Part shown: positions 5,088 to 49,631 of the stretch, one piece after another | Layout: each line of letters begins with the position of its first letter | How positions within the stretch are numbered: the first letter of the stretch is position 1 | IMG/VR virus record: IMGVR_UViG_3300036399_001256 | Coordinates: 1 to 59,688 of that record | Reading direction: 5' to 3' (one strand) | Origin: a virus | Length of the DNA stretch: 59,688 bases | Notes under the pieces: model-generated | Told to the model about the DNA's origin: nothing | What the model saw: only the letters and a program-made list of their open reading frames with translations | The model's database searches: none | Program-made: the position numbers and the translations under genes

Positions 5088-5094
5088 AAGAATT

Positions 5095-5144: not shown

Positions 5145-5380
5145 CCGCCGTGCTCCGGCGATTCGTGATCTTGGGCGTTAGCCTGAGAAAAATACTCCTC
5201 GCAGCATTTCCCGCAGACGGGCATTGCATACGGATCGGGGCTGAGTGTTCCGCCCTCGCTGTCGGGGTCGAACAGTTCTCCGCACGGGCATTTCATCCTG
5301 CCGTCAGGTTGGATCATTTCATCGTATGCGGCCTCGGCACGCATCTCGCCTCTTTCGATTGGGTCTGGTATGTAGGTCAT
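5132..5380 (-). CDS. Small zinc-binding protein (82 aa)
   Basis: Contains KCPCGELFDPD and, 20 residues later, VCGKCCEEYF, which together make a treble-clef or ribbon-like zinc site. Such small proteins are common in phage early regions and have no fixed function. The ATG overlaps the stop of the small upstream ORF (ATGA at 5377-5380). The gene ends in DSK followed directly by an attC-like element. The gene at 9475-9840 ends the same way, so both ends may derive from the same cassette boundary. Confidence 0.72.
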   Translation of the reverse strand: MTYIPDPIERGEMRAEAAYDEMIQPDGRMKCPCGELFDPDSEGGTLSPDPYAMPVCGKCCEEYFSQANAQDHESPEHGGDSK

Positions 5381-29075: not shown

Positions 29076-29708
29076 ATGAGAAACGTGAACTGCCCCAAAG
29101 CTAAAGTCTTTGTCCGCTGCGATGCGTTCGGCGGGCCTGCCGACCGATTTGAAACCGCGTGGCTTGTTTCCGTTAGAACAATGCGGAATCGCCCCTTGTG
29201 CTTCCAGGTGTGGGTGGAGAAATACGCGGCCTGCTTCGATAAGGTGCCTCCGCACTGCCTCTACTGGTATGAGCCGGAGGATGGCGCGGTTCCGTTGCCG
29301 CTCCACAAAGTCCAAATGTGGGAGTGCCTGTCGGGTTCCATTGAGGTCTGGCGCAAGGATCAGCTCAACGATGTTCCGGTGCTGGTCAACCTCGGAAAAG
29401 GAATGAAACCCATCGGTGGACACTACTGGTTCACGATTGACTTCATTCCAGAGGGGCAGGCTCAAGGGATCATGGACGTTGGGGATTCTGAGTTGTTAGA
29501 AGAACACAAGGAGGGCAACGTGATCCGGCTGGAGAATGGCCAGATTGCGATCTATCCAAACAACCGGATCAAGTGGCTTCCGGTGTCGCTTACCAAAAAG
29601 GACGCCGCTGTAACCATTCCGAATTGGGACGCAGCAACCAACGCCCAGTGGGATGAATGGTGGTCGGATTCGGACGAGCTTCTTGGTGATGCAAAATGGT
29701 CGTATTGA
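29076..29708 (+). CDS. Hypothetical protein (210 aa)
   Basis: MRNVNCPKAKVFVRCDAFGG and so on, rich in Trp and Pro (VWVEKYAACFDKVPPHCLYW; NAQWDEWWSDSDELLGDAKW). A central segment, GHYWFTIDFIPEG and GNVIRLENGQIAIYPNNRIK, looks beta-rich. No family recognised. It lies 28 bp after the DUF3310 fusion, within a group of small genes inserted between terminase and portal. Confidence 0.65.
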   Translation: MRNVNCPKAKVFVRCDAFGGPADRFETAWLVSVRTMRNRPLCFQVWVEKYAACFDKVPPHCLYWYEPEDGAVPLPLHKVQMWECLSGSIEVWRKDQLNDVPVLVNLGKGMKPIGGHYWFTIDFIPEGQAQGIMDVGDSELLEEHKEGNVIRLENGQIAIYPNNRIKWLPVSLTKKDAAVTIPNWDAATNAQWDEWWSDSDELLGDAKWSY

Positions 29709-31347: not shown

Positions 31348-34300
31348 ATGGAATCCCCCTTTCGACCAAAGCCCGAAGCCGCATCCCCAAAAGGTGAAGC
31401 AGTCGCCGAGGGTGTCACCCCGAGCACCCAAAGCGGCATTTTCTCAGCAAAACTTGGCACGCCGACGTGGCGGAAATTCGTCGCCAACCAGGCGTTCGCC
31501 GAGTCCAACCGTGGTGCGATCGCTGCCGAGAACGAATACACCGACCGCATCGCCCGCGAGAACACCGCCGCCCGCCGCGCCCCCGCCGCCGACCCGGTCG
31601 AATCGTTGGAGGAGAAATTCGGTGGCGACAACGGCAGGCTGTTCCGCAAGATCGGGAAGAACGTCGAAACGCTCGACCCGGAACAATTTGCCGATGACCC
31701 CAAGGTCGGCCCCTACGCCCGCAAAACCCTGTTTGATCGGGAACGGCGCAAGGCGCTCAAGGACGCCGAGGATTTGGATTTCAGGTTGCGCGATCCGTCA
31801 TTGCGCGTGAATCAGCTCTCACCGAAGGAGCGTGCCGACGCCGAGACGGAGTTGGGCATGATCGGTGACTCTCCAGACTATGCGGAGCAAGCCGCGGCGC
31901 TGCGTGAGCGCATCCGCAAGGATGATGAGGTGCGGAAAATGGAGCAGGAGGCGTTCAACGCCAAAGGCCGCGCCCGCGAATTTGAATCCGCTGACCCGGA
32001 TCAATGGTGGCAGTCGAAGCGGAGCCAACCATCCGCCGCCGTGCCGGATGCCCGCGCCATGCAGCAAGCCGCCGACGTGGCCGACGACTCCGCAGCGCGT
32101 GAGATGCGGGAGATTGAATCGCGACTCGCCAATGGTGTGACCGGGACCGAACTCGACACAGCCAAAGCCCGCATGGCCGAACTTGCGGACGCCCGGAAAC
32201 AGATCGCCGACGCCCGCCGCGCCGGTGATGAGCAGGTTGCCAGCGTGCAGGCGCGGGCAAAGCAACAAGTGACTCGCCAATCGGAAGCAGCGGTTCGGGC
32301 AAAAATCGCAACTCAAGGCGGAGTTGATTTGTCCGGAGTGAAGCCAGGCATGGCTGAGGCAGTAAAAACCGGACTCAACAACATGACAGGCGGCGACGCC
32401 GCGTATCGCGCCAACAGGTTGATTGCAGCGGATGGCGGCAGGGTGAACGCCCGGAAAAACCTTCAGACTCGCCTTGAGAATGCTCAAAACCGCAGCCCGA
32501 ATCTCGGTGGAAGCATCAAGGATGGCGGCAAGGATATTAACGACCGAGATCGCCAATATGAGATTTCCAACCTTCGCGAAACCCTCAAGGCACTTGATAC
32601 CCAAGAAAAGGCATTCAAGGAATCTGGGATTACCGATCCAGCTGAAATGGACCGCATTCTTGCGGACGCTTCCAAGGAAAACGAGTGGACGGAAAACGAC
32701 AGCGACAACATCCGGCAGCTTTCGACCGGCGAAATCGCCATCAATCCGGCCCGTGTTTTCGGCCAGAGAGACGCAATAATTGCAGCAATCAACGCTTCGA
32801 GCAGCAGCAAGGAAGACAAGGAAAGTGCCGTCGCCCGCTTGGATGCGATGCGCGAAAGCATGGCGGATAAAATCGCCAACGACACTTACTATGCCGACAG
32901 CGGTTTCGCGAAATTCGAGCAGGCAAAAGCAGCCGCCGGAGTGACTGATAAACTGCAAATTCTGGACGAATGGAGCGCCAGTCAGAAGGATCGGAACTGG
33001 GTTTTCAAAGCCGGTGACGCCATCAAGACCGGCTTGGCAACTGGGACAATCGGGGTTTATAAAACCGTCGTCGGCGGGGTCGCTGGCGGAGCTGCACTGG
33101 TTGGCGCTGAAGGCGTGGCGAAGGAGATGGGTGGTGAGCAGCAATTTCTTGCGGATGCGATTTCCAACATTGGAGAGGCGGGAAAACAGCGGGGTTTAAC
33201 TGGTGGCTACGGTCTAACTTCTGAGCTTTCTCAGACCGTTACCCAAATGGCTCCAATGCTGATCGGTGGTCAAGTGGCGGCTGGCTTGAAAGGTATCTCC
33301 CGAACCGTTGTTGGCGGCATGTCGGTTTATGGATGGGCGGCAGCTCAGGGTTATGAATCGAAACTCGCCGATGCGGTTTCGTATGCTGAGGCAGAAAAAG
33401 GCAGCAAGCTCACCCGCAATGAAATTGCCGCAGTGCTTGGTGACGGCACCGTGCAAACCGCTGCATTTCTCAACGGCGCACAAACAGCGATTCTGGCAAA
33501 AATCCTTGGAGGTGGCGCGGAGCGGGCGGCACTTGGCGGCAAAAACGTGCTTGGCAAGCAGGTTTCGTCAATGACCGTGAAGGATTTCGTGAAGGGTGGG
33601 GGACTTGCAGCCGCGAAAGACGGCACGCTTCGCAAAGAGCTTGGTGCAATGGCGAAGACGATTTTCTTGGATGCCACTGATGAGGCTATTGAGGAATTCA
33701 CCAACCAGATGCTTGATGGGATCATTAGCGTCGCAGTTCTGGGTGAGGACATGAAGTTTGGCGACCTGCTTTATGAATCAGCCTATGCAGGCGGGCTTGG
33801 GGCGCTTGTGGGGGGGGCGCTTCCTCAATTTCGAAAATCAAATCGCCCTGCCGCGCCCAACTCTCCCGGCTCGCAACCAAAAGTTCAAGAGTTGGTAGCC
33901 ACAGCTCTCACTGCCGAAGACCCCGACGCCCCACCACCCACCGAGGACGAAGTCCGCGCCGCCGAATCCATCACCCCGGAGAACTCCGGTGCTGCCGACA
34001 TCGCCGATGGTGTGTTGATTGAGCGCGAGCTTGCGGAGGTCGTCGCCGCCGAAGAATCCGCGCTGGCCGACGCCGAACAGGCGGTGGTCGATGCTCAGGC
34101 GACCGGCGACAAGACCCTCATCAGCGCCGCCGAGGGGGCGCTTGAGAAAATTCAAACCACCGGCCCCGCCGCTCCCCGTGTCCGCGCCGTGCTGAAAATC
34201 GCCGGTGGCCAAGCACTCTCCGACCTCGCCGACGCCGAAGCGCGGTCGCTGGGGTTCACCACCGAAGGCAAGCCACTCCCCGCCACCGACCTGAAAGCCG

Positions 34301-37300
34301 TGGGGCTCACCAAGCCACTCGTCCGCGCCGGTGCCGATGGCTCCGCCGTGCTGCTGGATGAGGCGCTGTCGATGGTCGAGAAGATTTCCCCCCGCGCCCG
34401 TGGCCGGGTGAAGCTCACCGAGGCGGAAGCGTTTGCGAAGTCGAAGGAACGCGCCGAAGCAGCGAATCAAGAGTGGGATGTCGAGTTGGCCGATGGCGGC
34501 ACCGTCCGCGTCCGCGCCGCCGACGAAACCGCCGCCGAAGAAGAAGCCGCCGCGACCGCGACCGGCCGCATCGTTCAAGGGACCGCCCGCAAAACCAATG
34601 AGCCGAACACACCGCAAAACGAATCACTTGCACCGGTGCCATTGCCATCGATGCCAGAAGGGGCGACGGGGACCAAGGGTGCTCAGCCTACTGGCGGCAA
34701 TGCTGCTGGAGTTGGGACTTCCCAAACGCGCCCCAAAGGTGAAGTGAGCGCCATCGATGCCGCCCGCAAGCGCATCACCAAAATCAAAAAATCTCCGGCA
34801 CTCCGCGACCTCATCGCCGACGTGTCCTCGCCGGAAGCCCGCGCCGCCACCACGGAAGCCGGGATCGTCATCAACCCCGAGCGCATCGTGAACGAAGCGA
34901 TGGCCGGCGGCATGAAGCCCACCCAAGCCGCCGAATACTTCGCCCGCGTGCTCGATGAGGAAGTCCGCCACCTTGCCCACCTCCAATCCGCCCGGAAACT
35001 GTGGGAGGAAGCTGGATCGCCGGGAGTGCTGGAGGAATGGCGTGCCGCTCACTACGGGGCGATCTGGAATGAGGATTTCGTCGGCACCGGCAAAGACAAA
35101 ATCATCCGCGATCTCTACGCCAGGGACGCCACCAAGCAAAAAGACCTGAAAAAATTCGACTCTCTGCCCGATTGGCAAAAGGCCATGGAGGGCATCCGCA
35201 TGATGTCCCAGGGCGACAAGGTAACTGAGCAGGCGAAGCTGTGGCTCAACATCAGCGAGAAGCTCCGCAGCGCACTGCAAGCCGCCCTCGATGCCCTCAA
35301 GTCGCTCATCGCCGACATCGATTCTCTCCCGTCCCTCAAAGCCGAAATCACCAACCTTGAAAATGCCCTCCGAGAAATCACCAGCACTCCGAATTCAGGA
35401 AATCGTCCAGCGAAGCCGCCTCAAGGCAAAACGGGTGATGGAACTCGCCCAAAGCCCGGAAAGCCCAGTGCTGAAACTCCGAACGATGGCCGGACTGAAT
35501 CAGGAGCAGGCGGAGGAACTGGTGTCGCTGTTGGCGACCGGGTCGAGTTCGACCGCAAAGGCGAGCGGCTGACCGGCGTCGTGGATTTGATCCGCGGTGA
35601 CGTGCTCCGGGTGAAGCTGGATGCGCCGGACTCCGAGAACGTGCCTACGCGCATGGTCCGCGCCGATGTCGTGACGGTGCTGGCGGGCGCGAAGGAAATG
35701 AAGGGCGAGAAGATCGACAAGGAATGGGTCGCATTCTCCCCTGAAAGCGGAAGCCTTGGCATTCCTCGCGATATGATGCCCCAGATCAAATCCGAGAATC
35801 GCGGGGCGATGGTGAATTTCCTGAACGCCCGCGGCGTTGCCCATGCCGCCGACGAAGTGCCCGCCGCATCACTCAAGCCGACCCAGCTCGAATACTCCCC
35901 CGCCAAAGTTGCCAAGGCCAAGGCGTTTGAGGGCGGAAATCGCTCCATTCTGATTTCCTCCGATGGCCACATCGTTGACGGTCATCATCAGTGGATGGCC
36001 GCGCTGGAGAAGGGCGAGAACATCGCCGTGATCCGACTGAACGCACCGATCCGCGACCTGTTGCCCATGGTGCTGGAAATGCCGAGCACGGAGACGGCGG
36101 GGGGCGCGAATGAAAGCAAACCGCCGAAAGCTTCAAATCCAGTGCCTGAAATTAAAGGCGAAGAGATCGAGTTTGTCGTTCAGCCTTTGCGCCCCGGTGC
36201 TCCAAGCGAAACAATCAAAATCCCGGCGAAGCCTCAAACTATCGGGCGCGGATCACTGGTTTCATGGACGGATCAAAACGGCACGGAACGCCAAGGGCGG
36301 GTTGAATATGTCGTCGAGCGCGGAGACATCATCCCCGGCGTAGTCACCAAGCCGACCAAGTTCTATTCAGTCAATTCCAATGGTGCGAGCTTTGACGTGT
36401 CGGAAGAAAACGAGACGTTGCGGAGGATCGAAAAGCTGGATGAGCAAGCTGCTGCTCCAACCGTCAAGGAATCCTTGACAGTTCAACTCTCCGAAGCCGA
36501 CCAAGCCGCGCTCGACCTGATGTCGGACATCATCCCCGGCCTTCAAACCGCACCGCTCCCCGGAGCCGACAACTACAAGCAGGCTCTTCCCCCCGGGAAA
36601 ATCGCAGGGTTGATTTCGGTTGCTCAGAAATACATCACCGAGGGAATCAATACTCCCGAGGCATTTGCAGAACGATTCAGCAAACTGGCTGGTGGCCAAC
36701 TCATGCCATTTACCCAAGCGTTCTGGGGTGCGTTCGTCATCGTTGATCCAACGGTGAACGCCTCGCCGGATTGGGCTGGGATTTACGGTCGTCTTGACAA
36801 TTCTGGCGCGAAAGAGGAGGGTGCCACCGATGACAACGCGCCTCAATCCAGCCTTGGTGGTCAAAGTTCGCAAGCAGGTGATCGCGTGGAACCGGGAACT
36901 CAGGGATCCGTGGATTCCATCACCGGCGGCACTCTCAATCGCCCAAACGATCAAGGGCAGCAGTCCGACGATGGCAACGCTTCTGACCAAAGCGGAGATT
37001 CTGGAGCCGTGGGCGGAAATGCTTCACGACCAGGTTCTGCTTCTGATGAAGCGGGAGGTGGATCAGGGCCGGGAAGCCGGGGAGGCACTCAACCGGGCAA
37101 TGCTGGAACTGGTTCCGGCAACGCCGGAGACGGAAGCGGAGTGGCTGGAAGCGAACAGCCTACCCACTCGCCCGGAAGAACTGGCTACCGCCTGACCGAC
37201 CCTGAAACGATTCTTGGATCAAAGGGTCCGAAAGATCGGTTTGCCCGCAACCGCAAGGCACTCGAAACCTACGACAAGGTCTTTTCCGAAGGGCGGGATC

Positions 37301-40300
37301 CGACTTCCGAAGAGCTCGACGCACTTGCCGCCTACATTGGCTGGGGAAGCTTCGGCCAAGAACTTTTCCAAGGCTCATGGGATCGACCAAACCCCAAGAA
37401 CGAATGGGAGAAAGAAAGTGAGTGGCTTCGCGATCACTTAGGTAAAGAGGGATGGGAAAGCATCCGTGATTCGATCATCAACGCCCACTACACGGACCCG
37501 CCGCACGTAAAAGCCCTTTGGGATATTGTGCAGCACCTCGGATTCCAAGGCGGACGGACACTTGAACCATCTATGGGGATTGGCAATTTCTTCGGACTGA
37601 TGCCCGACATCATTCGCTCCAAGAGCTCGCTCACCGGAATCGAATTGGATCGGGTTGTCGGAGGAATGGCGAAAATGCTCTACCCTGACGCGAACATTCG
37701 GATCATGGGTTACGAGAAGAGCGCCACGGCGGACAATTTCTACGACCTCATCATCGGTAACTGGCCTTTTGCTAAAGACGGCCCCAGCGATCCGCGCTAC
37801 AACCACCTTGGCCTTTCCCTGCATGATTACTTCTTCGTCAAGGCGCTCGACCAAGTGCGCCCTGGCGGATTGGTCATTGGGATCACATCGTCCGGAACGA
37901 TGGACAAAAAAGGCCAGGTTGCCCGGCGGCAAATGGCCAAGCGGGCAGAGTTGGTAGGAGCATTCCGATTCCCTACGGGCGCGTTCAAAGGCTACGCCGG
38001 AACGTCCGTCGTCACCGATGTCCTTGTTCTCAAAAAGCGCGCTGAGCAGTTATCGGACGCGGCGGAAGAGGATTGGATCGGTACCGAGCGCATCGGCGAG
38101 GAAGGAAGGTCTTTCAACGCGAATCTCTACTGGCGAAACAACCCGGACCATGTTCTCGGAGAAATGAAGTTCGGTAGTGGTACGACGTTCGGCCGCGCCG
38201 GGATGATCGTGAACCGCCCCGACAACTACGAGGCATTGCTTTCGGGTATCACATCTAAACTGCCCGCCGACATCTACTCGGACACACGCCCCGTGGCAGA
38301 GCGAAAGGTTTTCCAGAATCGCCAAGACGGGATGGCGCAAAACAGCGTCGTGTTTGAAAAAGGCGATGAAGTAAACCCGGAGGGATTCTACATCGTCCGC
38401 GGTGAGCAATTGCAACCACTCGGAAACCTCTTCCGGTGGGAACTGAAGGACGATGCTAAGACCGCCAAACGGGCGGAGGAACTTAAAAGCCTGTTGGAAA
38501 TCAGGGAACAGGTCCGCGCTTTGCTTGATTCCCAGCGGAACAATTCGACCGATGCGGAAAGCCTGCGGGCGGATGCGCTGAAGAGCTATCAGGCTTTTGC
38601 CAAAAAGCATGGCGGCATCGGCAATTCATTCATGATCACCGCGCTCGACAAGGCTGGTGATCCGATGGCGCTGACGCTGCGGAACCTGGAGCGGAAAGAA
38701 GGCAAGAAATACGTCCCGCGCGACATCCTCCTGAAAGACATCATGCGCCGTCAGGTGGTTGATGCGAAGGGCAACATCGAAGATGCTTACGCACTCCAGC
38801 GTAACGAAAGCACCGCCCTCGACCTTGAGCGCATCGCTGAAATGTCGGGATCTACCACGCAGGAAGTCACCGACCGACTTCTTGAGTTGAATCAGATCTA
38901 CATGACACCATCCGGGGTGTGGGAAGTCGGCGAGGAATATCTTGGCGGAAATGTCCGCCGGAAACTACGCGAGGCGAAGGATGCGAAAGAGCAGGGATTC
39001 GAGATGGATCGCAACATTGCGGCGCTCGAAAACATCCAGCCTGCCGACGTCGCCTATTTTGAGATCGAAGTTCAAATGGGTGCTTCGTGGATCGCGCGGG
39101 AGGACTATCTTGGATACGTTTCCCACTTGTTGGGGGCAGACCCGGCAAACGCGGAACAGAATTTCACCCTCGTCAAAGGATCATCGGGATGGAACTTTAA
39201 GGTCAACAATTCAGTGCTTGGCCGGAGCACCAACGCCCAAGAAAAATGGGGCGTTTCGCAACTGCCGTTCGCTAAGATTTTTCAAGCCGCAATGAACGGC
39301 ACGCAGGTCAAGGTATGGTATCCAAAAGATCAGGATGGTCGGGTAGAGCTTAACGAGGACGCGACCAAAATCGCCAACGGCAAGATCGATTCCATCCGTG
39401 AAGAACTTGCCGAGTGGCTCTGGTCCGATCCCGAGCGCACCGGGCGACTCTCCAACGACTACAACGAGGTGATGAACTCGGAAGTCACGCCGAAGCGTGA
39501 TGGTAGCCACCTGCGGCTTGAAGGACTCACTTTGTCACTTGGGAAGAGCGAATTCGATTTCCGGGAGCACCAGAAAAACGCGGTGTGGCGATTCATTATG
39601 GACGGCAAGGGCGTCGGCGCGCACGAAGTCGGCACTGGCAAGACTTTTACCATGGCGGGTCTTGCCGTCGAAGGTCGGCGACTTGGAAAATTCCGCAAAA
39701 CCCTGATCTTCGCCCACAACGCCAATTCCCAAGCGGTTTATGAGGAATTCCAGATGGCTTACCCAAACGGGAAATTCCTCTATATCAACAATCTCAGCCC
39801 GGAAAACCGTGACGCTTCCCTCCGGCAAATCGCATTGGATGAATGGGATGCCGTGATCGTTCCGCATTCGCTGGTTGATCGCTTCTCGCTCTCCGAGGCA
39901 AGTCTGATGGAGGTGGCGAACAAGCAGATCATTGCGCTTGAAAACGAAATCGCCGAAGCCCTCAACGACATTGGCTATGAAGGCGAACTTGACTTGGATG
40001 ACTCGAAGGCAGTCGCCCAGGCGCTAAAATACGTCAAGGACTCCTACACAGCGAAGGAGCTGGTCAAGCAGCGCCTGAAAATCGTCAAGCGGATCAAAGA
40101 CAAGGCCGCGAAGTCACAGGCCGACGGCGCGATTCTTTTCGAGGAATTGGGGGTCGATAACATCATTGTCGATGAAGCTCACGTCTTCAAAAAGATCAAC
40201 CTTGCCACCCGCAAGGACATCAAGGGGCTGAACAAGGTGGAAAGCGGCATCGGCTGGCAGATGGGCGCTCTTACCGACTACGTGAAGAGCCGCAACGGCG

Positions 40301-43300
40301 GAAAAGGGGTGTATCTCTTCACCGGCACCCCGCTGACTAACAACCTCAATGAAGCGTTCAACATGATGCGCTTCGTGATGGATGAGGAGATGGCTGACAC
40401 CGGCATCGACAACTTCGATGACTGGTTCAACTCGTTCGCTGCGGCGGTTTCTGATGTCGAGCTTACCACTGGCGGCACGCATGAGCCGGTGACGCGCCTC
40501 CTGTCCTTCGTCAACGTGCCCGAACTCGCTCGTCTGGCCGGACGCTACTTCGACGTAGTTCTCGCGAAAGACATGCCGGAGTTTAAGGATCGGACATCCC
40601 CGGACGGCATGACAGAGGATCCGGTCGGACGGCCATTTCGCTCCATCAAAACGGTGATTTCCGAAATGAGCCCGCAGCAACGGGTGCACAAAGAGGAGAT
40701 TCGCCAACAATACATCGCCTATCAGGCGCTCGACGGCAAAGGCAAGCGGTTGGCGATGCAGTTGGGGCAGCCAACCCCAATCACGATGGAGGGCAAAGGG
40801 ACCGCTTCCGCATTGGATTACCGCTTAGTCGATCCAGATGCCCCTGATTACTCCGGCAGCAAGGTCAATATGATGATCGGCAACGCGGTGACTCACTTCA
40901 ACGAGCACCCTGAATCCACGCAAATGATTTTCATGGAGCGCGGATTCAACGACTACACCGACCGGATGGACGCGATTCGCGGCCCGGGCGGAATGCCGAT
41001 CTATGACGATGACGGACAGATGCGCCGCCAGAAGGTGCGCCACCGTCAATTCAACCTCGCGCGGGACATCGTTGAAAAACTGATAGCGCAGGGAGTCGCC
41101 CCGGAGGAGATCGCCATCCTTTCCAATATGAGTCTCGACACGATCGAGTCTCGACCAAATGACCCGCTCCGCAAGGTGCTCCGTGTTTCCGCCAAGTTGA
41201 CCAAGGCTGAAATCGCCTCGCTCGCCAACGAGGGCAAGGTCCGCTTCATGATCGGCGGCACCGAAACGATGGGAACCGGCGTCAACGCGCAACGGAACCT
41301 TCGCGCCATGCACCACCTCGATGCACCGTGGACGCCGGGTGCGCTCGAACAACGAAACGGTCGCGGATGGCGACAAGGTAACCGATGGAACACGGTCAAC
41401 GAATACCGATACTTCGCCGAGGGATCGCACGACGGCCGGCGCTGGCAAGTGCTGTTGAATAAGGTCCGCTTCATCTATCGGTTTACCCAGATGCTTTTGA
41501 ATGCCGGTGGGGAAAGCAATCTCCGAGTTCTCAGCGGTGATGGCGCGGACATGAGTGAAGGTGGATCGAGCGTTGCTGATTTCGAGCAATCGTTCTCAGC
41601 GGCCGCCGGTGACCCTCGCCTGCTTCTCAAGGCAAAGCTCACCGCAGACGTTGATAAACTGGAGCGTCGTCGGGACACACATTTCAGATCGATCGAGAAG
41701 GCCCGCCAATCCATCGCGGAGATTAAGCGGGAAAAAACATCTGAAGGTGCTCGACTTGAAAAAGCCGGAAAAGTTTCCGATTTCTTCAAAGAGACGTTTT
41801 CCAAACCATTCGAGTTTGAGCTACTTGGCAAAACCTATACCGAGCGGAAAAAGGTTGAAGAAGCGATGGCGGCGTTGCCAGTGATGTCAAAGACCGACGA
41901 CAAGCGGGTTATTGGCAAATACAACGGCATTGATTTGTTTGTCGAATGGCACCCGCTTAGAAGTGCTCCCGAGTGGTCAATTCGGACAACCCTCGCCGAT
42001 GGACGGGTTCACGAAATCGGACTTGGATCGCAAAGCCTTGCGTCACTGGAAGGCACGATGCGCGGGTTCATGCGGAACGTCTCAAACAGCATTGAGCGAT
42101 TCGGTGAATACGACAAGTCGATTGCCTCGCTTTCTGAAATGCTCGACAAGCCATTCACTCGCCAACCCGAGCTGGATGGTAAGCGCAAGTCGCTACAAAT
42201 GATCCAATCGGAACTGGCGCAATCACCTTTCCCAGCGCCTTCTTGGTTGCGGAATGGTGCCCCGGCGGGATCGCTGGTCTATGTCAATGGCGAGGCCCGC
42301 GACGTTGGTGCTCATCGATGGGACAAAACGGGATATTGGCTCTTACTCGAATCCGAAGCCGGGTTGGTGCCCATTGATTACCGCAAGGTCAAAGACGAAG
42401 CTGGGAACGCCTTGTTTGAAGAGCGCCCGTTCGAGTCTCCGCCAGATGCCAAGGAGCTTACCGAAGACGAGATTCGCGGTGCTCTTGGTGGGGAGTTTTT
42501 CCTGGCCAACCCGGACGACACTTCCGCCAGCGGTGATGGCTGGCAAGTTTCCGGGCTTTTCGGCGACATCGGAACTTGGCGGATTTACAACTCCGACGGT
42601 GACATTCTCGGACAGGGAGATACTGCCGTTGAAGCGTATCAAGACTATCAAGTAAGAGGGACGACTGAAAAAAATGGCCTTGTCGATAGCCCCCCCATGG
42701 AAGGGTGGTTGTTTAATTCCCCTCGCTACCGCAAAATCGAAGGTCGATTGATTGCTCTTCGCCGACTGCTTCCAAAGGCCGAGTCAAAACTGGAGCGATT
42801 AGAGGACATGAACATTCAGCGCATGTCTGACGAAGAGGAGGTCGCCCATGAGAAGAGCCTTTTCAACGCTCGCCAACTGGTTAAGTCCATCGGCCAGCAG
42901 ATTGCGAAGTTTGAGCGCGAGAAAATGGAGGACGCCAAGGCTGGCGACCCTCAGTCCCTCCGCACCTCCCCCCTCCCACGCCTCCGCACCGACTCCCCAG
43001 AGTGGAAGGCGATGAGCAAAGCGGAGCGGAGGGCGTATCTGGAAGCGCGCAGTGCTCCGGAATCCAGTGGACAACGTCGCCAAGGCAATGCAGAATCCGA
43101 GTATGAAATCGACGCCAACACCGGCATCAGGTCAATCAAAGCCAATGGTATTCGCGAATGGAATGAAGTTGCTGGCAATCTCGCCCGCCAAGCGGCAGGA
43201 CTTCTCGAAGGCAAAAGACCCGTGGGTTCGGAAAATGGCGTCCCAGGGCCAGTCACGGAAAGTCTGAAGCAAAAACTTGCGTCGATCCTTGAGCACGACC

Positions 43301-46300
43301 ACGGGGCGGAATCTCTTGTCAGGATCGTGCGCGGAGACGCTGTTTATCGGTTCTTTCCGGTTGAGGAATCAGGCATCCGCCCGCTTGTGCTTCAGTGGCG
43401 CGCCGCTCCCAGGGGGTTGATCCTGTCCAATGCAGCAAAAGGCAATGCAGCCACCATTGCTGAAAGAGCGATGATTGCCAACACCCTGCCAGGCTTTCGT
43501 CCTGAAGAAATCATTGCCTTCTCCAGCGAGGCAGTCGTCACAAGATCGCCAGAAATGCCAGATGAGGCGGGTGAAGCGGAGATTGACCGATGGCTTGGCG
43601 AGCACGGTTATCCATTTGCTGTTTTCGGAGAACGAATGGCGATTCTTGTCAGTGTTGATGGCCAAAAATGGCTCGTCGATGACCTACATGAGGAAAATTT
43701 CCGCATTGCTGATGACGGCAAGGTTTACGTGACAGACTTCACTGCCGCTCGCGTCACGGATGCTGATGCGTCGAGGATTTTTGCCGAGCAAACCCTTCTG
43801 GATGCTGATGATGCTTTGCTTGCTGGTGACCTCCCACCCGCCCAAGAAACCGCCGCCAACATCGAATCCCTCCGCATCGACGCCAACAAGCGCATTCCGC
43901 GCCCATTGGTCGATGAGGCACGCGCCCAACAGGAAGCATTCGGCAGCGGGGCGGTGGGCGTGCCGCGTCTCGCCAACCCCGGCGACTCCCGCCGGTCGCG
44001 TGATGAGCAGGATATTGTTGATTCCGTTTACACGCACCGCGCCCAAGTTCGCGAAGATCGGTCGGTGATCGCCGAAGCTCGCCGCCGTCTTGAGGAAGAT
44101 CCCGCCGGGGTGGAAGAGAAGGTTCTACAGTCAGCATTTGGTGGGATGATTTCCATTGATGATGCGGACAGGGTCGCTGCCCGCATGCTCATCAACCAAC
44201 GCGCCAAAGAGGCCGGTGATGACCTTGCCAAGCATGAGGAAAACATGGCGCTTCGCATGGCCTATCGTCTGATGGGCGCGGAAATTGCCCGCATGCTCCG
44301 GATTGGTCGCGACCTCTATCAGACGCCCGAGGAGCGCCACCGGGAAATGATCGCCGACGCGATCTATGCCCCAACCCTCAAGGTCGAGAAGAAAGCCCGC
44401 GAAACCGATTGGTCGCCCGAGCGCCGCCGCGAGTTCATCCGCATGGAGAGCAAGAAGCGCATCGCGAAGATCGACGCCGCCATGAAGAAAATGGGAGTGA
44501 CGATTGATGAGGTGCTTTCGGGTGAGGCGTATCTATCACTCTCGCAAGACACCATCCTGAAAAACGCCCTCAAGCAGCGCAGCGCCGAGGAGCAGCAGGT
44601 GATCAAAATGCACCAGCGGAACACCCCGCTCGCTCGCATCAAAAAGGTGACCGGCGTGAGCGAGGCGAGGATTCAGGAGATCGTCGCCAAGATGTATGAC
44701 GAGATGCTGGAGCAGGCCCGCGAGAAAGTCCGCGCCGGTCTGACCCTCGAAAACTACCGCGACACCCTCAAAGGGTTGGAGGCTGGCGGACTCCCCGGCG
44801 AACTCACTCCCGAGCAGGAGGCGGAGGCCCGCCGCATCGTGGAAATTGGATTCGGGTTGAAGCGTGAGGTCGCCACGAAGGCAACGAAGCGGTGGAAGAA
44901 AGAAGCCGAGGAAAAGCCGGAAGACGAGGATGCCCGCATGCAAGCCACCGCCGAGAAGTGGATTGAGAAATTCGCCACTTCCCAGAGCGATACCTTGGCA
45001 TGGAAACCGAAGGCCAAGAAAAACATCAACGCCATGACGGCGCTGGTGAAGCTTCACCTTCGCAAGAGTGTCCCGGATTTCAAAGAGCGTGCCATTGAAC
45101 TCGGTGCCACTGAGGAGCAGGCGGATATTCTGGACAAGGAGATCGTCGAGGAGCGCCGCCGCGTCGCCGCCGTCAAAGCCGCCCGCAAGAAGAAGGTCGA
45201 TCCACTCACCGCCGACTGGTCCCGCCCCATCTTCACCGATGGGCTGGAGTCCTACACGTTCAACACGAAGGACCGCGCGGAGATCATGGCGCGGGTCGGG
45301 GCGATTCGTGGCATTGCGGCCGCAACCGGGAAGATCAGCACGCTCACCGGCAAGAAGCGTGATGAGGCGCTCAAACTCCTCGAAGAACTCAATGGGGTGC
45401 TCGCCAAATACGGCACCAACGCGAACGACATCTTCAAATCCGGCACGCCGGCCGATGACTACCGGTTCAACATCCAGGACCGCTACCACGTCGCCGCCGT
45501 CGCCCGCGCCATCAGCGCCATCGATGCGGACATCGTGGATAAGGGAGTTGAGTTGATCTACTCGAACATCCTGAGCGGTCTTCAAACGATGATCGTGAAC
45601 GCCACGGCCATCGTTCCCGCCGTTTACGAAACCACCGTCGCCCGCGGTTTCGAGTCTGCCGTCAACGCGCTGTTCCGTGATCCCATGGCGGCGTCACTCG
45701 GTGAGTCGAAATACATCCTCCGCGCCGTCGGACCAATCATCGCCCGTGCGTGGACCAATTCGGTGGCGACGTGGGGCAGTGAGCTTCCCATGTTCGATGA
45801 AGACTTCCTTGGAAAACCCGCCGACCTGAGCAAATTGTTCGACGGCACCGCCCCGCGCATCGGGTCGATTGGGGGACGCCGTGGGCGTCTGATCCGCATC
45901 CCCACCCGCCTCCTCCTCGCCACCGACGAGTTCAATCGCACCGCGCTGGCGTCGCTGGAGGTTGGTGCGATGGCCTATCGCACCGCGAGGGCTGCGGGGC
46001 TAAAACCCGGCACCAAGGAGTTTGATCGCTTCCTTCGCATCGAGGTCAACACCCCCGGCTCCTACTCATCGAAGCTCGCCGCGCAGAAAGCATCCCGGAT
46101 GATCTTCACCAATCCGCTGCCGGGGCAGAAAGACCCCGTCACCGGCAAGAAAGTCCCCGTCGAAGGACTTGGCGACGTCGTCGGCTTTGCAGCATCCAAG
46201 ATCAATGAGATCCTCACCGCCGACGTTGACAGCATCTTCGCCAAGGCATCTTTGGCACTCGTTCGCGTGCTGTTCCTTCCATTCCAGCGGACCCCGCTCA

Positions 46301-47427
46301 ACATCCTCCGCAAAGGCGCTCGCTACACGCTGAACCCTATCAGCATGATCGACATCACGCTTCTGTTTGCTCAGAACAATTTGAAAATGGATGGTGGGCG
46401 GTTGCGCTGGTCATGGAATGGCGACAATCGAAATGCCGAGATCATCGAGCGCGTTTCCCAACAACTCCAAGGCGGTCTTCTCATGCTGATGCTGGCTGCC
46501 GCCGCCGTGGGCGAGGGTGACGACGATGACCTCGACAAGCCGTTTCTCATCACCGGCTCGCAACCCTACAACCCCCGCAAGCGCGGACTGATGGATGCTC
46601 GCGCACGGTCAGGAGTTGGTCCCTATCGGATTTCCTTCCGCCTTGGCGGGCAAGAGCGATTTGGATTCAACTATGGCCGCATCGAGCCACTTGGCACCAC
46701 ACTGGGAATCACCATCGACTCCCTCCGCATGATGCGGAATCGCAAGCCGGATGACAGCCTGTTCCTTTCGTTGCTTGGTGGCATCGTCGCGCAGACGCAG
46801 GAGAAAACTTACCTTCAAGGACTCTCGGATATGGTGCGCCTTGGCATCGACGCCGTGGGCGACGAGGAGTTCCAGGGCAACAAGCAGATTGCCCGCTTCG
46901 CCGCCGGTCGCATGGCCATGCTCATGCCGAACATCATCCGCCAGCCGGTGCGCGAGGCTGACCCGAATTTCCGGGAGCGTGCCGACGACTTCATGACGGA
47001 GTTCATGTATCAGGTGGTTCCCGCTGGCCAGAAGCCACCAAAGCGCGACCTCTATGGTGAGGCCGTTGAGAAAACCGGCACCATGGTTGGCCGCATGGTG
47101 GATTTCACCGACGCCGGCACCAGCACCGTTTCGCCCATCGATGAGGCACTCCTTCGCTTCGCCGCCTCCAATCCATCCGAGCAGTGGTTCCCGTCGGTGA
47201 TCACAAGCTCGACCTACACCGACCGCGCCACCGGGGAGCAGGTCAGCATGACCGCCGCTCAACTGGATCGTTTCCGCGAAATGACTGGACAGCGTGTCGC
47301 GGCACTGACGAAACGTGCAGCCATCAACACGAAGAATCCCACTCAGAAAGACATCGAAACCATCAAGGCCATCGTGAGCAAAGCACGCGCCGACGCCAAG
47401 AAACTCATCGCCATCAAACCAAACTGA
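31348..47427 (+). CDS. Giant phage polyvalent protein: ParB-like, adenine methyltransferase, SNF2-type helicase, kinase-like and C-terminal region (5,359 aa)
   Basis: 27% of the genome in one intact frame. Order: helical N-terminus (1-550); Gly-rich hydrophobic segments (about 555-830); ParB/sulfiredoxin-like part with DGHIVDGHHQW (about 1535-1550); Gly/Ser linker (about 1835-1945); N6-adenine methyltransferase with LEPSMGIGNFFG (2072) and N-x-P-F motif GNWPF (about 2136-2140); SNF2 helicase with GTGKT (about 2762-2766), DEAH (2942-2945) and QRNGRGWR (3335-3342). A kinase-like module follows (DLHEEN 4112-4117, VTDF 4128-4131), then a long C-terminal region (about 4410-5359). Proteins of this class are thought to be injected with phage DNA and to modify or protect it. 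No Shine-Dalgarno precedes the start. Confidence 0.88.
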   Translation: MESPFRPKPEAASPKGEAVAEGVTPSTQSGIFSAKLGTPTWRKFVANQAFAESNRGAIAAENEYTDRIARENTAARRAPAADPVESLEEKFGGDNGRLFRKIGKNVETLDPEQFADDPKVGPYARKTLFDRERRKALKDAEDLDFRLRDPSLRVNQLSPKERADAETELGMIGDSPDYAEQAAALRERIRKDDEVRKMEQEAFNAKGRAREFESADPDQWWQSKRSQPSAAVPDARAMQQAADVADDSAAREMREIESRLANGVTGTELDTAKARMAELADARKQIADARRAGDEQVASVQARAKQQVTRQSEAAVRAKIATQGGVDLSGVKPGMAEAVKTGLNNMTGGDAAYRANRLIAADGGRVNARKNLQTRLENAQNRSPNLGGSIKDGGKDINDRDRQYEISNLRETLKALDTQEKAFKESGITDPAEMDRILADASKENEWTENDSDNIRQLSTGEIAINPARVFGQRDAIIAAINASSSSKEDKESAVARLDAMRESMADKIANDTYYADSGFAKFEQAKAAAGVTDKLQILDEWSASQKDRNWVFKAGDAIKTGLATGTIGVYKTVVGGVAGGAALVGAEGVAKEMGGEQQFLADAISNIGEAGKQRGLTGGYGLTSELSQTVTQMAPMLIGGQVAAGLKGISRTVVGGMSVYGWAAAQGYESKLADAVSYAEAEKGSKLTRNEIAAVLGDGTVQTAAFLNGAQTAILAKILGGGAERAALGGKNVLGKQVSSMTVKDFVKGGGLAAAKDGTLRKELGAMAKTIFLDATDEAIEEFTNQMLDGIISVAVLGEDMKFGDLLYESAYAGGLGALVGGALPQFRKSNRPAAPNSPGSQPKVQELVATALTAEDPDAPPPTEDEVRAAESITPENSGAADIADGVLIERELAEVVAAEESALADAEQAVVDAQATGDKTLISAAEGALEKIQTTGPAAPRVRAVLKIAGGQALSDLADAEARSLGFTTEGKPLPATDLKAVGLTKPLVRAGADGSAVLLDEALSMVEKISPRARGRVKLTEAEAFAKSKERAEAANQEWDVELADGGTVRVRAADETAAEEEAAATATGRIVQGTARKTNEPNTPQNESLAPVPLPSMPEGATGTKGAQPTGGNAAGVGTSQTRPKGEVSAIDAARKRITKIKKSPALRDLIADVSSPEARAATTEAGIVINPERIVNEAMAGGMKPTQAAEYFARVLDEEVRHLAHLQSARKLWEEAGSPGVLEEWRAAHYGAIWNEDFVGTGKDKIIRDLYARDATKQKDLKKFDSLPDWQKAMEGIRMMSQGDKVTEQAKLWLNISEKLRSALQAALDALKSLIADIDSLPSLKAEITNLENALREITSTPNSGNRPAKPPQGKTGDGTRPKPGKPSAETPNDGRTESGAGGGTGVAVGDRVEFDRKGERLTGVVDLIRGDVLRVKLDAPDSENVPTRMVRADVVTVLAGAKEMKGEKIDKEWVAFSPESGSLGIPRDMMPQIKSENRGAMVNFLNARGVAHAADEVPAASLKPTQLEYSPAKVAKAKAFEGGNRSILISSDGHIVDGHHQWMAALEKGENIAVIRLNAPIRDLLPMVLEMPSTETAGGANESKPPKASNPVPEIKGEEIEFVVQPLRPGAPSETIKIPAKPQTIGRGSLVSWTDQNGTERQGRVEYVVERGDIIPGVVTKPTKFYSVNSNGASFDVSEENETLRRIEKLDEQAAAPTVKESLTVQLSEADQAALDLMSDIIPGLQTAPLPGADNYKQALPPGKIAGLISVAQKYITEGINTPEAFAERFSKLAGGQLMPFTQAFWGAFVIVDPTVNASPDWAGIYGRLDNSGAKEEGATDDNAPQSSLGGQSSQAGDRVEPGTQGSVDSITGGTLNRPNDQGQQSDDGNASDQSGDSGAVGGNASRPGSASDEAGGGSGPGSRGGTQPGNAGTGSGNAGDGSGVAGSEQPTHSPGRTGYRLTDPETILGSKGPKDRFARNRKALETYDKVFSEGRDPTSEELDALAAYIGWGSFGQELFQGSWDRPNPKNEWEKESEWLRDHLGKEGWESIRDSIINAHYTDPPHVKALWDIVQHLGFQGGRTLEPSMGIGNFFGLMPDIIRSKSSLTGIELDRVVGGMAKMLYPDANIRIMGYEKSATADNFYDLIIGNWPFAKDGPSDPRYNHLGLSLHDYFFVKALDQVRPGGLVIGITSSGTMDKKGQVARRQMAKRAELVGAFRFPTGAFKGYAGTSVVTDVLVLKKRAEQLSDAAEEDWIGTERIGEEGRSFNANLYWRNNPDHVLGEMKFGSGTTFGRAGMIVNRPDNYEALLSGITSKLPADIYSDTRPVAERKVFQNRQDGMAQNSVVFEKGDEVNPEGFYIVRGEQLQPLGNLFRWELKDDAKTAKRAEELKSLLEIREQVRALLDSQRNNSTDAESLRADALKSYQAFAKKHGGIGNSFMITALDKAGDPMALTLRNLERKEGKKYVPRDILLKDIMRRQVVDAKGNIEDAYALQRNESTALDLERIAEMSGSTTQEVTDRLLELNQIYMTPSGVWEVGEEYLGGNVRRKLREAKDAKEQGFEMDRNIAALENIQPADVAYFEIEVQMGASWIAREDYLGYVSHLLGADPANAEQNFTLVKGSSGWNFKVNNSVLGRSTNAQEKWGVSQLPFAKIFQAAMNGTQVKVWYPKDQDGRVELNEDATKIANGKIDSIREELAEWLWSDPERTGRLSNDYNEVMNSEVTPKRDGSHLRLEGLTLSLGKSEFDFREHQKNAVWRFIMDGKGVGAHEVGTGKTFTMAGLAVEGRRLGKFRKTLIFAHNANSQAVYEEFQMAYPNGKFLYINNLSPENRDASLRQIALDEWDAVIVPHSLVDRFSLSEASLMEVANKQIIALENEIAEALNDIGYEGELDLDDSKAVAQALKYVKDSYTAKELVKQRLKIVKRIKDKAAKSQADGAILFEELGVDNIIVDEAHVFKKINLATRKDIKGLNKVESGIGWQMGALTDYVKSRNGGKGVYLFTGTPLTNNLNEAFNMMRFVMDEEMADTGIDNFDDWFNSFAAAVSDVELTTGGTHEPVTRLLSFVNVPELARLAGRYFDVVLAKDMPEFKDRTSPDGMTEDPVGRPFRSIKTVISEMSPQQRVHKEEIRQQYIAYQALDGKGKRLAMQLGQPTPITMEGKGTASALDYRLVDPDAPDYSGSKVNMMIGNAVTHFNEHPESTQMIFMERGFNDYTDRMDAIRGPGGMPIYDDDGQMRRQKVRHRQFNLARDIVEKLIAQGVAPEEIAILSNMSLDTIESRPNDPLRKVLRVSAKLTKAEIASLANEGKVRFMIGGTETMGTGVNAQRNLRAMHHLDAPWTPGALEQRNGRGWRQGNRWNTVNEYRYFAEGSHDGRRWQVLLNKVRFIYRFTQMLLNAGGESNLRVLSGDGADMSEGGSSVADFEQSFSAAAGDPRLLLKAKLTADVDKLERRRDTHFRSIEKARQSIAEIKREKTSEGARLEKAGKVSDFFKETFSKPFEFELLGKTYTERKKVEEAMAALPVMSKTDDKRVIGKYNGIDLFVEWHPLRSAPEWSIRTTLADGRVHEIGLGSQSLASLEGTMRGFMRNVSNSIERFGEYDKSIASLSEMLDKPFTRQPELDGKRKSLQMIQSELAQSPFPAPSWLRNGAPAGSLVYVNGEARDVGAHRWDKTGYWLLLESEAGLVPIDYRKVKDEAGNALFEERPFESPPDAKELTEDEIRGALGGEFFLANPDDTSASGDGWQVSGLFGDIGTWRIYNSDGDILGQGDTAVEAYQDYQVRGTTEKNGLVDSPPMEGWLFNSPRYRKIEGRLIALRRLLPKAESKLERLEDMNIQRMSDEEEVAHEKSLFNARQLVKSIGQQIAKFEREKMEDAKAGDPQSLRTSPLPRLRTDSPEWKAMSKAERRAYLEARSAPESSGQRRQGNAESEYEIDANTGIRSIKANGIREWNEVAGNLARQAAGLLEGKRPVGSENGVPGPVTESLKQKLASILEHDHGAESLVRIVRGDAVYRFFPVEESGIRPLVLQWRAAPRGLILSNAAKGNAATIAERAMIANTLPGFRPEEIIAFSSEAVVTRSPEMPDEAGEAEIDRWLGEHGYPFAVFGERMAILVSVDGQKWLVDDLHEENFRIADDGKVYVTDFTAARVTDADASRIFAEQTLLDADDALLAGDLPPAQETAANIESLRIDANKRIPRPLVDEARAQQEAFGSGAVGVPRLANPGDSRRSRDEQDIVDSVYTHRAQVREDRSVIAEARRRLEEDPAGVEEKVLQSAFGGMISIDDADRVAARMLINQRAKEAGDDLAKHEENMALRMAYRLMGAEIARMLRIGRDLYQTPEERHREMIADAIYAPTLKVEKKARETDWSPERRREFIRMESKKRIAKIDAAMKKMGVTIDEVLSGEAYLSLSQDTILKNALKQRSAEEQQVIKMHQRNTPLARIKKVTGVSEARIQEIVAKMYDEMLEQAREKVRAGLTLENYRDTLKGLEAGGLPGELTPEQEAEARRIVEIGFGLKREVATKATKRWKKEAEEKPEDEDARMQATAEKWIEKFATSQSDTLAWKPKAKKNINAMTALVKLHLRKSVPDFKERAIELGATEEQADILDKEIVEERRRVAAVKAARKKKVDPLTADWSRPIFTDGLESYTFNTKDRAEIMARVGAIRGIAAATGKISTLTGKKRDEALKLLEELNGVLAKYGTNANDIFKSGTPADDYRFNIQDRYHVAAVARAISAIDADIVDKGVELIYSNILSGLQTMIVNATAIVPAVYETTVARGFESAVNALFRDPMAASLGESKYILRAVGPIIARAWTNSVATWGSELPMFDEDFLGKPADLSKLFDGTAPRIGSIGGRRGRLIRIPTRLLLATDEFNRTALASLEVGAMAYRTARAAGLKPGTKEFDRFLRIEVNTPGSYSSKLAAQKASRMIFTNPLPGQKDPVTGKKVPVEGLGDVVGFAASKINEILTADVDSIFAKASLALVRVLFLPFQRTPLNILRKGARYTLNPISMIDITLLFAQNNLKMDGGRLRWSWNGDNRNAEIIERVSQQLQGGLLMLMLAAAAVGEGDDDDLDKPFLITGSQPYNPRKRGLMDARARSGVGPYRISFRLGGQERFGFNYGRIEPLGTTLGITIDSLRMMRNRKPDDSLFLSLLGGIVAQTQEKTYLQGLSDMVRLGIDAVGDEEFQGNKQIARFAAGRMAMLMPNIIRQPVREADPNFRERADDFMTEFMYQVVPAGQKPPKRDLYGEAVEKTGTMVGRMVDFTDAGTSTVSPIDEALLRFAASNPSEQWFPSVITSSTYTDRATGEQVSMTAAQLDRFREMTGQRVAALTKRAAINTKNPTQKDIETIKAIVSKARADAKKLIAIKPN
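47306..47318 (+). promoter_or_regulatory. Junction motif TGACGAAACGTGC near the end of the giant CDS
   Basis: Exact core in frame as L-T-K-R-A, 115 bp before the portal start. It could act on the downstream portal gene or be chance within coding sequence. Confidence 0.4.
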
Positions 47428-47432: not shown

Positions 47433-49631
47433 ATGGAAGACCAAGTCGAACGAATCACAGCGCCGCAAGATGGGGAAATCATCCCCAGCGATGACGGACT
47501 CAGCCCGCGCATGCCATTCCCAACCTCCTATCGCCTCACTCGCGAACAGGAGGATGAGTTGGTCACGCATGCCATGAAGCGGCTGGAAGAGCTTGAGGCG
47601 GAAACTGGACGAAACGTCACCGCCAACGGTGAATGGTGGCGGCAGGATGGAACCACCCAACTTGACCCCGCCGAAATGGAAGGCATTCGCAAGCACGGGC
47701 GGACGTGGATGGGCAAGCGCCACCTCTACGACCTGATGGCGCAGAACGACGTCGAGCACCGCAGTTCGCTGCTTGGCGGAATCTTCGCGCATTCAAACCT
47801 CGTCGTACCGATCGCTCGCCGCATTTGCCGCCAGATGATCGCCCGCGCCGTGAATTACTTCTTTGGCACCGATCCATGGTTCGCCGTCTATCCGGTGGGG
47901 GAGATGGACAAGATCCGCGCCGAAAAGGCCGACAAGTATCTCCGGTGGAAAACCGATGGCTCGAAACTCAAAGGCACCAACGAACTCGCCGTTCAACGTT
48001 CCTTCGAGATCGGTGAGGCGGTGGTGAAATCGACCTGGCGCGAAAAAAGCCAGATCTTCAAGACCAAGGCCACGGTGCTGATCGGAAACGACGGCAACCC
48101 GATCTTAGGGCAGGACGGGGATTTTATCACCGAGCGCGACCTGTGGGTGCAGTCGATGGTTGAGGATCCAGACACCGGCGAGCCGGTCCTCGGTCCGATT
48201 GTCCTCAAGCGCGACAACGCCACCCCGGAGCCGGAGGTGAAAAACTGGCAGGAGCGTGACATCACCCGCCGCCTCGTTCACTACCGCGGCACCGAGTCGA
48301 ACGTCATCCACTACACCGATTTCCTGTGCCCGCTCGAAGCTGAGAACGTGCAGGACGCCGATTGCGTCGTTCATCTCTATGATCAACCGCTGATGGGGCT
48401 GGCAGATGAGTGGGCGAAGTCCATCCCGCCGGACGCCAGCGCCGAAGTCCGACAGGACATGACCCGCCGGTCGATCAACCTACTTCGCGAACTGGATGCG
48501 TCCCCCGGCGAGTTCCGGTCAGGCCAAAACAGCAATGCTGTGGATTCTGATTTGGAGCAGGCGAATCTATTGAATCAGCAGTCCGCCCCGCAAGTTGAGA
48601 TCGCTGAGTTCTACCTTCGATATGACTGCGATGGCGACGGCATCCTTGAGGAAATCATGCTGGTGCTGGATCGCAACACCCGCACGCCAATTTACTACGA
48701 CTACGTTGCCAACGTGACCCCCGACGGATTGCGGCCGTTCTCAGTGATCCGGTGCAACCGGGTGCCTAACCGGTGGTATGGATTCGGTGCGATGGAGATG
48801 TTTGAATCCTCGCAGCAGATCGTTGACCTGTTGGTGAACCGCTGGAATTTCGGCAACTCCCGCGCAGCGAGGATTGATTTCTGGAGTCCCCACAACACCC
48901 TCGAAGGGCGGAACAACTCGAACCTCGAAGTGAATTGGGGCGGCACCTACACCCCCGGCCCCGGCAAAAAGGCGGCGGACTGTTTGGAGTCGGTCTATCT
49001 GGAAAACAACACCGGCCCGATGCTCCGCGAGCTCACCGAGTTCTTCATGCAGCTCATGATGAATGAGAGCGGTGTGTCGAATGCGAATGATGGCAACGTC
49101 GCCGGACTCGACACTACCAAGCTCGCCACTGGAATCCGCAACATCGAGAAATCCGGGCAGGAGTTATTCTCGCTCCATATCGGTCACCTCGAACCCGGCA
49201 TCGCCAGCACGCTCAAGCGCGAGGTGGATTTGATCATGGTCCGGCTGGATGAGGGCGAAGTGTATCGCTACTTCGAGGAAGGGGAGGGCGGTGAGGGCGC
49301 GGCTGGATTTATGGCGATTGATCCCGCCGAGATTATGAACATCGAAGTCGACACCCGCATCCTGCTCACTCGCTACCGTGGCGAGCAGATGCTCGAAAGC
49401 TCTATCCGTGGGGTGGAGTTGGTGGAGAAATTCTATGGCATGTTCCCCGAGGTGCAGCAGCGCACCGCGCCGATGTTCCAGGACATGCTGAACGCCCTCC
49501 AGATCAACAACGCCCGGAGCATCATTCAGCCCATGGCAATGCTGCCCGTCGGGCCCGGTGGTATGCCAAACGCCCAGCAGACCGCGCAAGCCGCCGCTGG
49601 AAAACCAAGAACCTCACCACCTAACATCTGA
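47433..49631 (+). CDS. Portal protein
   Basis: 732 aa from the ATG at 47433, a length near that of P22-type portals. The core region NLVVPIARRICRQMIARAVN YFFG leads into the clip/stem domains, and VIRCNRVPNRWYGFGAMEMF with QQIVDLLVNRWNF is the conserved wing/stem part of long portals. The C-terminus ends in an Ala/Gln-rich tail. It forms the dodecameric DNA channel at the capsid vertex. The stop overlaps the next ATG (TGATGA). The longer frame upstream is a shadow of the giant gene. Confidence 0.85.
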   Translation: MEDQVERITAPQDGEIIPSDDGLSPRMPFPTSYRLTREQEDELVTHAMKRLEELEAETGRNVTANGEWWRQDGTTQLDPAEMEGIRKHGRTWMGKRHLYDLMAQNDVEHRSSLLGGIFAHSNLVVPIARRICRQMIARAVNYFFGTDPWFAVYPVGEMDKIRAEKADKYLRWKTDGSKLKGTNELAVQRSFEIGEAVVKSTWREKSQIFKTKATVLIGNDGNPILGQDGDFITERDLWVQSMVEDPDTGEPVLGPIVLKRDNATPEPEVKNWQERDITRRLVHYRGTESNVIHYTDFLCPLEAENVQDADCVVHLYDQPLMGLADEWAKSIPPDASAEVRQDMTRRSINLLRELDASPGEFRSGQNSNAVDSDLEQANLLNQQSAPQVEIAEFYLRYDCDGDGILEEIMLVLDRNTRTPIYYDYVANVTPDGLRPFSVIRCNRVPNRWYGFGAMEMFESSQQIVDLLVNRWNFGNSRAARIDFWSPHNTLEGRNNSNLEVNWGGTYTPGPGKKAADCLESVYLENNTGPMLRELTEFFMQLMMNESGVSNANDGNVAGLDTTKLATGIRNIEKSGQELFSLHIGHLEPGIASTLKREVDLIMVRLDEGEVYRYFEEGEGGEGAAGFMAIDPAEIMNIEVDTRILLTRYRGEQMLESSIRGVELVEKFYGMFPEVQQRTAPMFQDMLNALQINNARSIIQPMAMLPVGPGGMPNAQQTAQAAAGKPRTSPPNI
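47607..47619 (+). promoter_or_regulatory. Junction motif variant GGACGAAACGTCA in the portal CDS
   Basis: Exact 9-base core, but the first position is G and the reading frame differs from the L-T-K-R copies (here T-G-R-N-V-T). It lies 174 bp inside the portal gene. Confidence 0.35.

Follow-up and report, generated by a model that had tools for sequence, protein, structure and literature searches.

What could a phage gain from a single protein that takes up more than a quarter of its genome, and where would such a protein act? This question is raised by one gene in IMG/VR record IMGVR_UViG_3300036399_001256, whose entire 59,688 nt (hereafter, the window) were analyzed. The record carries a 127-bp direct terminal repeat, which leaves a unit genome of 59,561 bp.

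A giant reading frame adjoining the portal gene

The gene is a single open frame with zero internal stops and occupies 27.0% of the unit genome, just as an earlier note on this DNA, made from the letters alone, had described it. Scans of IMG/VR with a profile of the protein's C-terminus recovered about a dozen distinct, uncultivated relatives, which are denoted here by G numbers. Measured from stop to stop, their open frames span 4,505 (G001), 7,213 (G003), 5,502 (G006), 4,891 (G007), 4,829 (G014), 4,864 (G015), 5,988 (G016), 6,304 (G017), and 4,334 (G019) codons, and only 1,492 in G018. Judged by these sequences, the giant frame is not due to chance, since related frames of 4,334-7,213 codons occur in other contigs and substitutions are strongly skewed to silent sites. 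The protein encoded by G003 (7,210 aa in a single frame, positions 7902-29531 of a 38-kb contig) exceeds the 5,007-aa gp27 of Erwinia phage Pavtok, which a 2021 paper (PMC8402733) ranked as the longest phage protein known at the time, and larger ones may since have been described.

The gene adjoins the portal and capsid genes in a late structural cluster (Table 1), and its location near virion genes is kept in the relatives. Where the sequence suffices, these display the same order as the window, i.e., the giant gene followed by the portal gene, the capsid gene, and their neighbors; in G018, the most distant relative, the portal gene precedes the giant gene. The earlier note had placed the gene between terminase and portal. 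This is accurate on the portal side, where the ATG (47433) begins 5 bases past the giant-gene stop, but three ORFs intervene on the terminase side. An ORF in that interval (29076-29708) matches the PHROG "ferredoxin" family (1.6e-33), an odd companion in a late cluster.

Near DNA matches to the window were absent from the phage records, and tblastn of its portal protein against those records also returned none. The C-terminal part of the giant protein was found in none of 84,980 cellular genomes, and thus no host or prophage was identified.

Table 1. Features of the giant gene and its neighbors (positions refer to the window, residues to the giant protein)
Feature	Position	Strand	Evidence
Terminase gene 5' of giant gene	26676..28457	+	PHROG 2e-9; TerL also 5' of giant gene in G001 and G003
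Giant gene, 5,359 codons	31348..47427	+	One open frame
N-terminal carrier segment, residues 1-340	31348..32367	+	26-39% identity in relatives; N-terminal alignment
Gly/Ala-rich, weakly hydrophobic segment, residues 430-840	32635..33867	+	44-49% identity in G014/G016/G017; other Gly/Ala-rich stretches instead in several relatives
Conserved carrier domain, residues 1103-1449, DEE(V/I/L)xH motif	34654..35694	+	47-52% identity to G001; in most relatives
ParB-like domain, residues 1447-1606, DGHHQW	35686..36165	+	60% identity to Pseudomonas phage USP_18, 53% to BcepIL02, 54-56% to G016/G017; absent from G001
Small domain right before cargo, residues 1709-1830	36472..36837	+	Matches in G001, G003, G006, G007, G015, G016, G017
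Cargo: DarB-type adenine methylase and SNF2 translocase, residues 1831-3700	36838..42447	+	PHROG DarB-like E=0; homologous to P1 DarB; 78% identical in G016, 60% in G006
Window-specific segment, residues ~3900-4166	43045..43845	+	No match in relatives or phage records
Carrier helical domain, residues 4167-4510, HTH-like stretch	43846..44877	+	61% identity to G001; weak HTH matches in G018 counterpart
Carrier C-terminal domain, residues 4613-5357; ~4709-5350 internal virion protein D-like	45184..47418	+	hhalign Prob 99.9, E 1.2e-31, 547 columns; AF2; Foldseek BFVD
Portal gene directly 3' of giant gene	47433..49631	+	PHROG portal 4e-17; synteny
Major capsid protein gene	52239..53702	+	PHROG 1e-12; synteny

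A carrier with an enzymatic middle of the DarB type

On our best reading, the giant protein consists of a carrier, which comprises the N-terminal segment, residues ~830-1449, residues ~1709-1830, and the C-terminal ~1,200 residues, and of a cargo inserted in its middle. The first ~60 residues are conserved in most relatives and, by analogy with the N-terminus of P1 DarB, are a candidate capsid-targeting region or packaging signal. The small domain before the cargo is retained in the seven relatives of Table 1 irrespective of the cargo type that follows it. The DEE(V/I/L)xH motif resembles HExxH, with Glu replacing the first His in most relatives, and might mark a degenerate or altered metallopeptidase. 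A kinase identity considered for part of the window-specific segment (DDLHEENF...VTDF) was unsupported, as neither Kinase-PolyVal nor the phage records gave a match.

A membrane role had been suggested for the Gly-rich residues 555-830. Hydropathy alone does not support it, as this stretch is only weakly hydrophobic, with one 21-residue window reaching 1.3 on the Kyte-Doolittle scale, and the enclosing segment is itself replaced in several relatives.

All of the catalytic motifs of the DarB family that had been noticed earlier are present and intact, i.e., GNWPF at residue 2137 in the methylase and VGTGKT, DEAH (IIVDEAH at 2939), and QRNGRGWR (3335) in the helicase. PHROG searches assigned residues ~1848-3259 to DarB-like antirestriction proteins (E=0) and DNA methyltransferases (2e-135). 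The homology to P1 DarB spans methylase and helicase, with a profile E of 2e-94 and 31% BLAST identity over the methylase. The domain at residues 1447-1605, also noticed earlier as ParB-like, matches large uncharacterized phage families in PHROG, with the ParB family itself a weak match (0.017). Searches for LPD38, Kinase-PolyVal, and ddrB-ParB gave no match in the window, with positive controls that were empty or weak; ART-PolyVal and LPD3 domains were found in relatives. The protein thus joins at least two biochemically unrelated domains (ParB-like, methylase, SNF2 motor, and internal-virion-type) in one polypeptide, which bears out its earlier description as a polyvalent protein. In this respect, it resembles the late-gene polypeptides with several unrelated activities surveyed by Iyer et al. 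in 2017 (PMC5512222), and the methylase-helicase dyad, its Strawberry notch variant, and ART-PolyVal domains described there all occur in the relatives.

The DarB-like giants of short-tailed phages (the Bcep22 group) are already a known kind, and we therefore asked if the window protein is just another of them, with an architecture like that of BcepIL02, Pavtok, or SopranoGao. The methylase-SNF2 region matches 114 phage records, including Burkholderia phages BcepIL02, DC1, and JC1, Erwinia phage Pavtok, Klebsiella phage SopranoGao, and Pseudomonas phage USP_18 (40%), and the ParB-like domain matches many of the same records plus the F116 group. The giants of these phages (BcepIL02 gp70, JC1 gp69, Pavtok gp27, SopranoGao gp6, and that of USP_18) share with ours the homologous engine (28-39% identity), a late gene, and a similar length in genomes of similar size, and those of USP_18, BcepIL02, and Pavtok also share the ParB-like domain. 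However, their termini are different. A transglycosylase is reported or annotated in several of them, whereas SLT was unmatched anywhere in the window genome (control genomes were positive) and Pfam gave no match in residues 1-1700. SopranoGao has a PLxRFG/tail-700 domain (673 bits), for which NCBIfam gave no match in the window. Outside the cargo and the ParB-like domain, BLAST detected no similarity between the window protein and those of USP_18, Pavtok, BcepIL02, and SopranoGao, so that the termini are not detectably related. Moreover, their gene closes the late operon and is followed by the lysis genes, whereas the window gene directly precedes the portal gene and encodes an internal-virion-protein-D-like carrier. 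Membership in the Bcep22 type is thus largely refuted, and we consider it improbable.

P1 DarB has a homologous adenine methylase and SNF2 motor but differs in its setting. It stands alone as a 2,255-aa protein of a long-tailed phage and is packaged with helper proteins via an N-terminal signal (PMC9024508), whereas the window version is fused inside a far larger carrier.

The C-terminus resembles internal virion proteins of marine phages

A tblastn search matched residues 5068-5339 to "internal virion protein D" of Roseobacter phage CRP-804 (E 9e-5), a domain whose relatives include internal virion protein D of HTVC011P, ProddE, Syn5 gp45, and P-SSP7 gp16. A profile of the window clade aligned by hhalign with these marine internal virion proteins over residues ~4709-5350 (Table 1), whereas in control comparisons the same profile gave E values of 0.29 against T7 gp16 and 0.06 against the tail-700 set; since these are single-pair E-values, the contrast with the controls weighs more than the absolute figure. 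The proposal that the C-terminus is a diverged PLxRFG/tail-700 domain consequently finds no support.

An AlphaFold2 (AF2) model of the C-terminal domain built from 21 sequences reached a pLDDT of 73.7 and a pTM of 0.69 (an earlier model from four sequences was poor, with a pLDDT of 46.7). Foldseek against BFVD matched this model along most of its length to predicted viral structures, including predicted models of internal virion proteins from Pelagibacter phage Eyrgjafa and Synechococcus phages S-CBP2 and S-CBP3. Other BFVD matches were proteins annotated as ART-PolyVal, LPD3, or MuF-C, and the carrier domain seems to be common to internal virion proteins and many polyvalent proteins. Foldseek and VIA-align of the model gave no convincing PDB match, and in PDB sequence searches neither the C-terminus and its profile nor two cargos without a recognized domain gave anything useful; no solved relative of the carrier domain emerged by either route.

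Profile and model comparisons together indicate homology between the C-terminal ~640 residues and the internal virion protein D of marine T7-like phages, which strongly supports the suggestion of the earlier note that the protein may double as an internal ejection protein. Two findings count against an ejection reading. Neither T7 gp16 itself nor any solved structure shows a detectable match, and the carrier gene is upstream of the portal gene, whereas in CRP-804 the portal and tail tube genes precede the gene for the internal virion protein. The marine proteins share the homologous C-terminal ~550-640 residues and a matching predicted fold, yet they stand alone at about 1,200-1,400 aa, have no DarB cargo, and are encoded among core/tail genes. 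Because of its length and its position upstream of the portal gene, we describe the giant protein as working like internal virion protein D and not as a member of that family.

Cargo exchange on a conserved carrier

The relatives carry various cargos. DarB-type cargo occurs as two alleles, namely, allele A in the window, G016 (78% identical to the window), and G006 (60%), and allele B in G003 and G017 (70% to each other and ~27-37% to allele A). G001 instead has a methylase and a Strawberry-notch helicase (PF13872, 9e-101; PF13871, 3e-79), of which G007 has a divergent version, and G015 has another SF2 helicase followed by a methylase. In addition, G006 bears an extra methyltransferase, and G003 has a ParB-like domain after the dyad, a zeta toxin, and two ADP-ribosyltransferase domains. 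The cargo regions of G014 and G019 comprise >2,000 residues without a recognized domain and are possible new payloads. The frame of G018 holds the carrier C-terminus, LPD3, and part of an ART-PolyVal match, with no methylase-helicase cargo, and is possibly near a minimal carrier. Since G018 has a comparable C-terminal domain without this cargo, the enzymatic part is not needed for whatever the carrier does, which counts against our best reading.

When the carrier C-termini were arranged in a tree, these cargo types fell at scattered positions, with 8 changes compared with a mean of 7.4 in shuffled data. The cargos of the window and G016 are 78% identical, whereas their carriers are ~37-39% identical. 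The reverse situation is seen between G016 and G017. At the DNA level, their giant genes are 98.8% identical over codons 1-1418 and 99.5% identical from codon 4031 on, and their loci are 99.7% identical over 14.9 kb (the rest of the giant gene and the capsid genes), whereas only 138 bp of codons 1719-4030 of G016 align with G017 (at 78%). The right-hand crossover of this exchange falls in a linker, GGLE(T/A)ADLYDLP. Judging from these alignments, cargo is exchanged between phages while the carrier stays. This near-isogenic pair, differing almost only in cargo, represents a natural experiment on that point.

An assembly chimera of co-occurring phages could give the same appearance, as all of these sequences are metagenome contigs and allele B on the G016/G017 carrier is known from a single contig (G017). 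G017 is, however, open and in frame across 6,304 codons, and different metagenomes yielded three or four contigs of the G016 form, three of which were compared at 99.98% identity. Furthermore, the scatter of cargos across the whole carrier tree is independent of G017. We consequently regard a chimera as highly improbable.

Both parts of the protein are, by their substitution patterns, under purifying selection. Nei-Gojobori estimates for cargo A between the window and G016 were a dN of 0.16 and a dS of about 1.8 (saturated), and those for the two carrier halves between G016 and G017 were dN/dS of 0.0037/0.045 and 0.0013/0.0148 (i.e., ratios of 0.08-0.09).

Linkers between modules

Between modules, a motif consisting of a hydrophobic residue, x, and A(G/A)P(L/I) is repeated, with 10 copies in G003 (shuffles predict 0.45), three in G001, and one or two in other relatives. 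The copies in G003 read AGPL or AGPI and lie within residues 2096-6388, and those in G001 read AAPLP. This AxPL-type linker may be where a protease cuts or where recombination joins modules. In the former case, the protein would be a polyprotein whose carrier and enzymes are separated by cleavage at the assembly stage or following entry. The repetition of the linker, the position of the G016/G017 crossover in a similar one, and the zincin-like peptidase processing proposed for polyvalent proteins (PMC5512222) agree with such cleavage. Nonetheless, the window protein has 0 copies of the motif as defined, no protease was identified (the conserved DEExxH stretch is without the first His of a zincin), and the repeats could equally be recombination joints; cleavage is therefore doubtful in our view. 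Just as tentative is a more general proposal, in which a conserved internal-virion-type polypeptide would serve as a delivery carrier, with enzymes plugged in mid-protein at standard AxPLP-like linkers, freed by cleavage after entry, and traded between phages as in-frame cassettes.

Probable role of the giant protein

We consider it likely that the giant protein is a virion-carried ejection protein, in which a conserved carrier holds a swappable, mid-inserted cargo and delivers a methylase-translocase that protects incoming DNA. We infer its presence in virions, ejection into the host, and modification or covering of DNA, as well as an antirestriction role, from DarB (PMC9024508; PMC5512222) and from the homology to internal virion proteins. 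The shielding of DNA invoked by the earlier note would fit the DarB homology.

More specifically, the carrier would most likely position the protein inside the capsid, at the internal core or near the portal, and aid its entry into the host, either together with the DNA or before it. Inside the host, the DarB-type methylase and SNF2 motor would travel along the entering DNA and methylate or mask it against restriction, and the ParB-like domain may help to hold the DNA. Over evolutionary time, crossovers in linkers would swap the cargo between phages, with the carrier retained.

Alternatively, the enzymes may act only late in the producing cell (e.g., by methylating progeny DNA), the C-terminal domain being a mere portal anchor. 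The gene does lie in the late cluster and adjoin the portal gene, and a paper cited in PMC9144972 appears to link the P1 antirestriction system to capsid morphogenesis. Late action would nevertheless not require fusion to an ejection-type domain, and those DarB-like proteins that have been examined belong to the virion: P1 packages DarB as an antirestriction protein (PMC9024508), and JC1 gp69 was detected in virions by mass spectrometry (PMC9144972). We judge exclusively late action to be unlikely and favor delivery with the entering DNA.

Polyvalent giants, DarB cargo, and modularity are already known. Two elements are new as far as the literature searched extends, namely, that a DarB-like giant has a carrier of the internal virion protein D type and that near-isogenic relatives differ by the exchange of one dyad for another; both go beyond PMC5512222, a text that does not use the words "internal virion." Poorly understood polyvalent giants are thereby tied to a recognized class of internal virion proteins, which gives a concrete reason to suspect ejection. 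Direct questions follow, such as which host defenses each cargo beats and how proteins of several thousand residues pass through a short tail.

Alongside a giant protein without a detectable transglycosylase, the window carries a separate gene (1573-2133) that matches Peptidase_M15_4 (1.8e-7) and is a candidate endolysin gene.
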